Source: Gemmatimonadaceae bacterium
Lineage (GTDB): Bacteria; Gemmatimonadota; Gemmatimonadetes; Gemmatimonadales; Gemmatimonadaceae
DNA: 64,000 nt
Assembly: GCA_020852815.1 (NCBI GenBank)
Contig: JADZAN010000019.1
Coordinates: 124,001 to 188,000, forward strand
Direction of reading: 5' to 3'
Within the stretch, counting starts at the first letter, position 1. Every line of letters begins with the position of its first letter. The position numbers and the translations under genes were made by a program. Below are positions 35,748 through 38,130 of this stretch, one piece after another. The notes beneath the pieces are model-generated. The model saw only the letters and a program-made list of their open reading frames with translations. It was not told the origin of the DNA and did not search any database.

Positions 35748-37937
35748 CTACCAGCGCATCTCCGCCGTCACGAAGATCGCGCGTGCGGGCAGCACGAAGT
35801 AGCGCACCGTGCCTGACGAGGAGACCGACCCGCTGCCATAGCGCTGCGAGTTGCCCAGGTTGGCGCCGCGCACCATGAGGGCGTAGCGATCGCGCGACCA
35901 GCGTGCCGTGGCATCGAGCACGTGGTACGACGGGAGCACCCGGTCGGCACTCGACGTGTTGTCAAGGAAGGCGCGCGACTGGAAGCGCCCTTCCACACCC
36001 ACGGTGAACGACCGGGCGACGGCAACGTCGGCGCGCTGCACGCTCATGAAGCGCGGGGTGAGCAGCGGTTCCACGTTGCGCCGCAGCACCGGCGTGCCAC
36101 GCGAGGAGTCGGTGAACTGGCGAATGCGGTTGGTGCTCCAGGCCACGTTGCCGCCCAGCGACAGTCGCGACGTCGCGCGCCACGCCGCATCCACCTCGAG
36201 GCCGCGACGGTAGCTTTCCCCAACGTTGCGACGAAGCACCGCCCCCGAGGCAGTGGGCGCGCCGATGCGCGCGATGTCGTTACGGAAGTCCATCGAGTAG
36301 ACGTTGGCCGACAGGTCGTAACGTGCGCGCGCCACGGTGAACCCCGCCTCGAAGTCGCGCACCGTCTCCGGGCGCACGCGGGTGAAGTCGCCGTAGTCGC
36401 CCACGTTCGTCGCGTTCAAGTCGTCGTCGCCGGCCAAGAGGTCGCTGCGCGCGGGTTCGCGCGTGGTGGCGCCGTAGGACGCGAAGAGGTTTACGCCATT
36501 GGCGAGCGACAGCGTGACGCCGCCTTTGGGGTTGAGGAAGCTCCAGTCGATCGATCTTTCGCTGATTCCCGCGTTGGCGTCCGGCTCGTAGCGGAACTCG
36601 GCATGGCGCCCCTGCACGTCGGCGAACCAGCGCAGGCGTCCGACGTCGTACGACGCCTTGAGGAAGGCACTGATGTCCGACTTGTGCCCGGTGTTGTCGT
36701 AAAGTGTGGTGGCGGGCTGCAGGTAGCCGCGATGCGCTCTCGCGTAGTCGTTGGCGTTGACGCCCGCAAACACTCGCAGCGCGCCGCGCTGGTGGTTCAC
36801 CGCGCTGGTGACGCCGTACCAGGTGTGCGCCAGGTTGAAGCGATAGCGATCGGGGAGGTAGAAGTAGTCGTAGCTCCCCGAGGCGGAATTGCGATAGACC
36901 GTCGTGTTGAGCGACGTGGCGTCGCTCACGAGGCGGGTATAGGCGAGCGCCACCATCTGCTGCCCAAAGCGATCACGCTCGTCAGGCGCCAGCGGGTTGT
37001 ATCTGCGGTTGGTGCGCAGCTCGTCCCGCGTCGCCCCCACGTAGGCCAGCGTATCCGAGAGCACGCCAGCCAGCGCCGTGAGCTTGACGATGTCGCGGTC
37101 GCCGAAATAGCCGGCGCCGAGCAGCGCCGAGCCACCGGCGACGCCCGCATGTTCGCGATAGCCGTTGGTCTGCAGGACGCCCAGGCGAGCCTGCACGGCG
37201 AAGCGGCGCCCCGGCCCGGCGAGCCCGCTGGCGGCGGAGGCGCTGACCCGGCGCGCCCCGAACGACCCCACTTGCAGCTGGACGTCACCGCTCGCCTGGC
37301 GCTGCGCCACCGGCATGGTCTCGAAGTTGACCGACCCGGCAAACGACGCCGTGCCGGCGCTCGACGTCCCCACCCCGCGTTGCACCTGCACCGACTGCAC
37401 GCTCGACATCAGGTCCGCGAAGTTGGCGAAATAGAGGACCTGGTCTTCCATGTCGTTGAGCGGGATCCCGTCGATCGTGATGTTGATGCGCGTCTGGTCC
37501 ATCCCGCGCAGCCGGAGATAGCTGTATCCCCAGTTGGTCCCGGTCTCGGTGTGCGCCGTCATCGCCGGTGCCGCCCCCACGAGGAGGAGCGGGACGTCCT
37601 GCCCGAACTGGCGCTGCCGAATGGCCGCCGCCGGAATCGTCTTTTGCGCGATGGGGGCCGCGTCGGAAGCGCGGATCGCCGTGACCAGCACGCGCTCGAT
37701 GCGCCGCACGCTGTCGCCCGGCACCGAGTCGCGGCGCGCGGGGAGCGTATCGCGCGCCTGCGCGGCCAGCGATGACGACCAGGCGGTCGCGGCAATGGCG
37801 ACAACGCGCGCGAGCGGAGTGAAGCGCGCGAACGAAGTTAAGCGCGCGAGCGGTCCAAGGCGTGCGAGCGTTACAGGGCGGGCGCCGATCGATCGGCGCG
37901 CACGGCGCGCGGTGCGCGCCTGGGGCAGGCAAGACAT
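35748..37937 (-). CDS. TonB-dependent outer-membrane receptor under TPP riboswitch control
   Basis: A 729-residue outer-membrane receptor. After the export leader comes the plug domain: QKTIPAAAIRQRQFGQDVPLLL, the LRLRGMDQTRINITIDGIPLND region and VQVQRGVGTSSAGTASFAGS. A 22-strand-type barrel follows, ending with aromatic residues (ARAIFVTAEMRW). The 5' leader is a clear thiamin pyrophosphate riboswitch 7 bases from the start codon, and the last element of the aptamer doubles as the ribosome binding site. It is therefore likely to import thiamin, a phosphate ester or a pyrimidine precursor when TPP is low. The N-terminal leader is unusually long and contains a 6-residue repeat encoded by an 18-bp tandem repeat. 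Confidence 0.9.
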   Translation of the reverse strand: MSCLPQARTARRARRSIGARPVTLARLGPLARLTSFARFTPLARVVAIAATAWSSSLAAQARDTLPARRDSVPGDSVRRIERVLVTAIRASDAAPIAQKTIPAAAIRQRQFGQDVPLLLVGAAPAMTAHTETGTNWGYSYLRLRGMDQTRINITIDGIPLNDMEDQVLYFANFADLMSSVQSVQVQRGVGTSSAGTASFAGSVNFETMPVAQRQASGDVQLQVGSFGARRVSASAASGLAGPGRRFAVQARLGVLQTNGYREHAGVAGGSALLGAGYFGDRDIVKLTALAGVLSDTLAYVGATRDELRTNRRYNPLAPDERDRFGQQMVALAYTRLVSDATSLNTTVYRNSASGSYDYFYLPDRYRFNLAHTWYGVTSAVNHQRGALRVFAGVNANDYARAHRGYLQPATTLYDNTGHKSDISAFLKASYDVGRLRWFADVQGRHAEFRYEPDANAGISERSIDWSFLNPKGGVTLSLANGVNLFASYGATTREPARSDLLAGDDDLNATNVGDYGDFTRVRPETVRDFEAGFTVARARYDLSANVYSMDFRNDIARIGAPTASGAVLRRNVGESYRRGLEVDAAWRATSRLSLGGNVAWSTNRIRQFTDSSRGTPVLRRNVEPLLTPRFMSVQRADVAVARSFTVGVEGRFQSRAFLDNTSSADRVLPSYHVLDATARWSRDRYALMVRGANLGNSQRYGSGSVSSSGTVRYFVLPARAIFVTAEMRW
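37806..37877. repeat. Four-unit degenerate 18-bp tandem repeat in the receptor leader
   Basis: Four consecutive 18-bp units begin at 37806, 37824, 37842 and 37860. Each starts GCGCGCGA or GCGTGCGA, with diverged ends. They encode six-residue repeats of type ARLGPL, ARLTSF and ARFTPL in the basic leader of the TonB receptor. Confidence 0.75.
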
Positions 37938-37944
37938 CGTTGGA

Positions 37945-38025
37945 CTCCCTACGCCGGTACGAACCGGATCAGGTTCTACGGGACTCTCTCAGCCGGCGAT
38001 CACTCGCGTCGTCGGCACCCCGGTC
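37945..38025 (-). promoter_or_regulatory. TPP (thi-box) riboswitch
   Basis: Read on the minus strand, the leader shows the THI-box blocks in order: GGGGTGCC (38014-38021), GGCTGAGA (CTGAGA at 37987-37992), CCCGT, ACCTGATCCGG (ACCTGATC at 37967-37974) and ACCGGCGTAGGGA (AGGGA at 37946-37950). A GAC/GTC pair closes the outer stem. The terminal AGGGAG is 7 bases from the ATG of the TonB receptor and is the only ribosome site candidate. Ligand binding would therefore hide it, as in translational THI switches. No terminator or antiterminator hairpin is seen between aptamer and start. Confidence 0.95.
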
Positions 38026-38130
38026 ATGTGCGCGAAGGTTAATCGGGCAACACCGCGCGGCGAAAGCCCTCAGGCGCGCCGCGCGCCTCGACGGGAGCGC
38101 ACGCCGAGTGCGCCCCCGCTGCCTGCGGCA

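Follow-up and report, generated by a model that had tools for sequence, protein, structure and literature searches.

The closest described counterpart of the locus studied here is OMthi (BT2390) of Bacteroides thetaiotaomicron, a TonB-dependent receptor linked to a TPP riboswitch, for which a role in thiamin uptake is backed by mutants (PMC5613172). A comparable arrangement is found in Caldithrix abyssi, where Cabys_3975-3977 comprises a TPP riboswitch, a BT2390-like TonB receptor, a symporter and a pyrophosphokinase (PMC5317091). In Gemmatimonadota, a survey of the phylum reported that thiamin synthesis is far less common in the Gemmatimonadales (PMC10469786). Here, we analyzed a stretch of 64,000 nucleotides (hereafter, the window) from a Gemmatimonadaceae bacterium (assembly GCA_020852815.1, contig JADZAN010000019.1, positions 124,001 to 188,000), in which a preliminary description had recognized a THI-box in the leader of a TonB receptor and no second thiamin gene. 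The locus is, probably, a TPP-sensing translational OFF switch acting on the outer-membrane thiamin importer of a thiamin auxotroph.

Results

A TPP riboswitch adjoins the start of a TonB-dependent receptor gene

Scanning the whole window with cmscan yielded a single Rfam match, that of the TPP riboswitch aptamer or THI element (RF00059; 62.7 bits against a gathering cut-off of 54.3 bits; E 6.2e-10), which lies on the minus strand at positions 37929..38032 and covers the model over its full length (1-105). The element is a typical RF00059 member with good support, as had been anticipated from the THI-box blocks, and its predicted ligand is TPP. No other TPP riboswitch match was found in the 5.38 Mb genome. 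From P1 to P1, the aptamer spans 38025-37943 (5′ GAC, 38025-38023; 3′ GUC, 37945-37943); the range originally noted for it, 37937-38025, runs from the A of the ATG up to the 5′ GAC of P1. In its Rfam extent, the aptamer directly reaches the start codon of the receptor (37937-37935). Inspection of the leader alignment by eye indicated that P1 is swapped whole between clades (GAC/GUC versus GCCGC/GCGGC) and that the outer P2 pair of orthologous leaders is C-G, A-U or G-C. The minimum free energy fold of the leader by itself was no better than that of shuffled sequences (z 0.83), so that it is the covariance model and the comparison of leaders, rather than fold stability, that support a riboswitch.

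The gene behind the riboswitch (35748..37937, minus strand) encodes a TonB-dependent outer-membrane receptor of 729 residues, with plug (PF07715, 40.9 bits) and barrel (PF00593, 96.2 bits) domains both scoring over their cut-offs. Its predicted model has a regular receptor shape (pLDDT 72.6, pTM 0.76) and, among solved structures, best matches PqqU/YncD, the structure of which was solved with the cofactor PQQ; by sequence, the match among solved structures was an uninformative 35 bits to the receptor 9rvq. A role as siderophore or heme receptor was rejected, as the matches to NCBIfam models fell far under their cut-offs. Since the downstream neighbor is convergent, the receptor gene is monocistronic. 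No further thiamin gene was found in the window, in agreement with the preliminary description; ThiL and a PnuC/PnuT gene are encoded on other contigs. The accompanying claim that the receptor stands alone holds for this genome but not for many of its relatives, in which PnuC/PnuT and kinase genes adjoin it. Orthologous receptor loci numbered 62 among 80 genomes of the family.

The aptamer contains the only Shine-Dalgarno candidate

The motif AGGGAG (37945..37950, minus strand) is at once the 3′ end of the aptamer and the sole Shine-Dalgarno candidate, with 7 nt between it and the ATG, as already pointed out in the preliminary description. In the Rfam alignment, its AGG pairs with CCU in P4 and its final G is the first base of P1; the CCU and AGG of P4 were invariant in 26 distinct relatives. 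GGGA lay 5-14 nt (mostly 7-9 nt) ahead of an in-frame start in 53 of the loci examined, and the Shine-Dalgarno-ATG spacing and layout were maintained in most close relatives. Only 5 nt separate the 3′ GUC of P1 from the ATG, which is too short for a terminator, and scans for terminators and sigma-70 promoters around the leader predicted neither. Because the sole Shine-Dalgarno candidate lies within the aptamer and this layout is kept in close relatives, direct translational repression is the best mechanism for the window, with the TPP-bound aptamer predicted to mask the ribosome site. At high cytoplasmic TPP, the aptamer would fold and the P4/P1 junction would sequester AGGGAG, turning the receptor off; at low TPP, AGGGAG would be freed and the receptor translated.

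About 20 loci from other clades have a start codon near GGGA that is not in the reading frame of the receptor. At L055, L059, L146, L152, L156 and others, this start is situated 7 nt past GGGA. Such starts may reflect a short leader ORF or an expression platform of another kind, and direct blocking of the Shine-Dalgarno sequence is thus not universal.

The genome lacks genes for making thiamin

Of the thiamin genes sought in the window's genome, ThiL was present, and ThiC, ThiE and a PF04263-type thiamin pyrophosphokinase were not found. Given this gene set, the bacterium is expected to depend on thiamin or its phosphates, as a thiamin auxotroph. Across the 80 family genomes, PF04263 pyrophosphokinase was absent throughout, while ThiL was matched in all 80 and over its cut-off in 76. 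The preliminary description had proposed uptake of thiamin or of a precursor across the outer membrane; the thiamin half of this proposal is supported, whereas import of the precursors HMP and HET was rejected as unlikely for this genome, which has no ThiE to join them and for which the known salvage route is thus closed. Three cultured Gemmatimonadota have been reported to grow without need for added vitamins (PMC7844134, PMC11271474, PMC9862903). These reports count against the auxotrophy reading, but, as far as their accessible text goes, the tests were made in media that were complex or contained yeast extract.

A second TPP riboswitch was seen in four relatives (G019, G055, G068 and G079); in L013 (G068), it precedes a ThiM-like gene, with ThiE close by. 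These relatives can probably also salvage precursors.

Receptor and ThiC replace each other across genomes

Among the 80 family genomes, 79 of which had been selected for carrying a TPP riboswitch, 58 had the receptor only, 18 had ThiC only, four had both and none had neither. The Fisher test of this near-exclusion gave p 2e-14, uncorrected for kinship. Each of the 62 receptor genes was preceded by a TPP riboswitch on its own strand, as established from coordinates for 51 and by cmscan for 11. Riboswitch and receptor also occur together in a culturable relative, Roseisolibacter sp. H3M3-2 (L164). In 80 further genomes, mostly from other families, ThiC was present in 65, the receptor in three and neither in 12; all three receptor genomes were devoid of ThiC, and two had the riboswitch. 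Swaps between receptor and ThiC were observed within genera g6, g20, g21 and g38, the last of which belongs to another family and includes two genomes with receptor and riboswitch but no ThiC (G041 and G108) and one with ThiC but no receptor (G037). The pattern is therefore not the product of one old event. The reciprocal distribution of receptor and ThiC makes the receptor a likely vitamin B1 importer.

Several points of this comparison count against the reading. One is the choice of the family genomes for carrying a TPP riboswitch, and another is the four genomes harboring both receptor and ThiC. A further one is a receptor lineage of Gemmatimonadaceae at L153:2514-5941 and L155:2507-6389, in which pnuC, kinase and receptor genes stand in a row with a NUDIX-like gene and where no TPP riboswitch was found; the genome carrying L155 (G048) is also without ThiC. 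The receptor of this lineage may be otherwise regulated or have another substrate. Directly upstream of pnuC, at L155:2374-2467, lies a long, almost perfect hairpin that scores weakly against microRNA families from its symmetry alone and is perhaps a small mobile element or a terminator.

A PnuC/PnuT carrier and a NadR-like kinase accompany the receptor

A PnuC/PnuT gene was present in 61 of the 62 receptor genomes versus five of the remaining 18, and in 18 receptor genomes it was no more than 1 kb away from the receptor gene. Directly behind pnuT, 52 of the 62 receptor genomes encode a small P-loop kinase similar to the NadR kinase domain. The four elements, from riboswitch through receptor and pnuT to kinase, are lined up as in an operon in G016 and G112; in G158, G169 and G244, it is the kinase that adjoins the receptor, with pnuT elsewhere. 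The window's genome has pnuT and kinase (G000:C24:59799-60347) together on contig C24, with no TPP riboswitch. No member of this kinase family was found in G144 and G184, which do have the receptor, PnuC/PnuT and ThiE.

The PnuC/PnuT protein scored above the nicotinamide-riboside-transporter cut-off (TIGR01528), and the kinase matched the NadR kinase domain. The Pnu motif reads WxxWxxxD both in Gemmatimonadota and in the Bacteroidota NAD-locus proteins, and WxxWxxxN in 4qtn, such that it does not separate the groups; the distinction between PnuT and PnuC specificity is taken from context only. The Gemmatimonadota kinase has no NMNAT half, and its conserved block at the DTD motif differs from that of NadR. 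As TMP formed by such a kinase could feed ThiL, we propose the NadR-kinase-like protein as a candidate for the missing thiamin kinase. Searches of the literature for a NadR-type thiamin kinase, or for a TonB receptor of nicotinamide riboside, returned nothing relevant.

The receptor is related to those of NAD-salvage loci

A scan of genome contigs from 84,980 species was performed with the receptor and the best 80 matches were examined. Most were from Gemmatimonadota, under names including Gemmatimonadaceae and Gemmatimonadetes, which bears out the phylum suggested in the preliminary description, and four were from Bacteroidota. Three of the latter (L158, L171 and L176) reside in loci with NadV, PnuC and NadR; the remaining one, L179, has PnuC and NadR genes in its vicinity. 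NadV and the N-terminus of NadR were assigned from reading of the sequence and not from a profile search. No TPP riboswitch was found at these four loci. Two of the same Bacteroidota genomes have another receptor behind a TPP match (L199, 68.9 bits; L202, 44.0 bits and thus below the cut-off). Gemmatimonadota receptors shared 36-40% identity (39-40% on average) with the NAD-locus receptors versus 23-29% (26-27% on average) with L199 and L202. In a maximum-likelihood tree, in which the OMthi-type set consisted of L199 and L202 only, with their type assumed and BT2390 itself outside the comparison, these two were set apart from the Gemmatimonadota and NAD-locus receptors with a support of 100/100.

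The preliminary description had referred to the THI-box-controlled receptors of Bacteroidetes; in this comparison, the receptor is not of that type but groups with NAD-salvage-locus receptors, which comes partway to the clustering given there as a refutation. Tree and identities together suggest that TPP control of a TonB receptor arose independently here, on an NAD-salvage-related receptor. Receptor, Pnu carrier and kinase look like a nicotinamide-riboside uptake module that was independently recruited for thiamin.

Discussion

In the route that best accommodates these findings, thiamin or its phosphates would be taken through the outer membrane by the receptor in a TonB-driven manner and would cross the inner membrane via the PnuC/PnuT-family protein. 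The NadR-kinase-like protein encoded behind pnuT would then probably phosphorylate thiamin to TMP, which ThiL would turn into TPP. A broader formulation, to which we give about an even chance, is that the whole nicotinamide-riboside-type module of receptor, Pnu carrier and NadR-type kinase was placed under a TPP riboswitch in Gemmatimonadaceae, where it serves thiamin and has replaced ThiC several times, the kinase, with only a ribosylnicotinamide-kinase fold, being a new thiamin kinase acting before ThiL.

The relatives in NAD-salvage loci and the ribosylnicotinamide-type kinase make a non-thiamin substrate conceivable. The receptor might still import nicotinamide riboside or NMN, the presumed substrates of its Bacteroidota relatives, with the TPP riboswitch merely coupling NAD salvage to the thiamin state, as its nearest homologs outside the phylum adjoin NadV and PnuC-NadR genes in the absence of a TPP riboswitch, and both the carrier and the kinase bear NAD-type signatures. 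We consider this very improbable, for it leaves unexplained both the mutual replacement of receptor and ThiC and the presence of a TPP switch on every one of the 62 receptors; moreover, the kinase departs from NadR in its missing NMNAT half and its DTD-motif block, and the Pnu family is known to include carriers of either substrate (PMC7749635). Import of TMP or TPP, which ThiL would use as such or following dephosphorylation in the periplasm, would dispense with a thiamin kinase altogether. Such a route would suit a family that has ThiL and no PF04263-type enzyme, as well as the two kinase-free receptor genomes, G144 and G184, though both of these have ThiE. It is nonetheless rather unlikely in view of the kinase gene right behind pnuT in most receptor genomes, its position beside the receptor in three genomes (G158, G169 and G244) where pnuT is elsewhere, and the substrate reported for PnuT, which is thiamin (Jaehme et al. 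2018, as cited in PMC7749635).

As to the mode of regulation, the out-of-frame start codons of other clades would fit a riboswitch working on transcription, in a Rho-dependent manner, or on mRNA stability, instead of one that masks the Shine-Dalgarno sequence. Against this, the 5 nt left between P1 and the ATG in the window, the failure to find a terminator-like site and the spacing preserved in close relatives render action at either of these levels unlikely.

If the thiamin reading holds, a probable outer-membrane thiamin importer can be named for a widespread family, mostly uncultured, in which thiamin synthesis has largely been lost, and the predicted dependence on vitamin B1 may be useful in devising culture media. 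TPP-riboswitch control of TonB receptors would appear to have had at least two origins, on different receptors, and the kinase offers a testable candidate for a new thiamin kinase. The arrangement is of interest less for its riboswitch than for the loss of ThiC where the receptor occurs and for the kinship of the import set with NAD-type proteins.

Comparison with known systems

The locus resembles that of OMthi in the TPP riboswitch placed before a TonB receptor and in PnuT as the inner-membrane partner. It differs in that the receptors L199 and L202, taken here to be of the OMthi type, form a separate branch, distant in sequence from those of Gemmatimonadota, and in that B. thetaiotaomicron has thiamin biosynthesis and the pyrophosphokinase Tnr3, whereas the window's genome has neither ThiC and ThiE nor a PF04263 pyrophosphokinase. 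With the Bacteroidota NadV loci (L158, L171 and L176, and more loosely L179), it shares a homologous receptor, a PnuC-family transporter and a kinase of the ribosylnicotinamide-kinase type; in contrast, those loci have no TPP riboswitch near by, encode a full NadR including the adenylyltransferase half and adjoin NAD-salvage genes. Caldithrix abyssi, finally, provides another predicted thiamin auxotroph outside Bacteroidota with a TPP riboswitch on a TonB receptor, but its receptor is reportedly of the BT2390 type and is paired with a different inner-membrane carrier and a different kinase.
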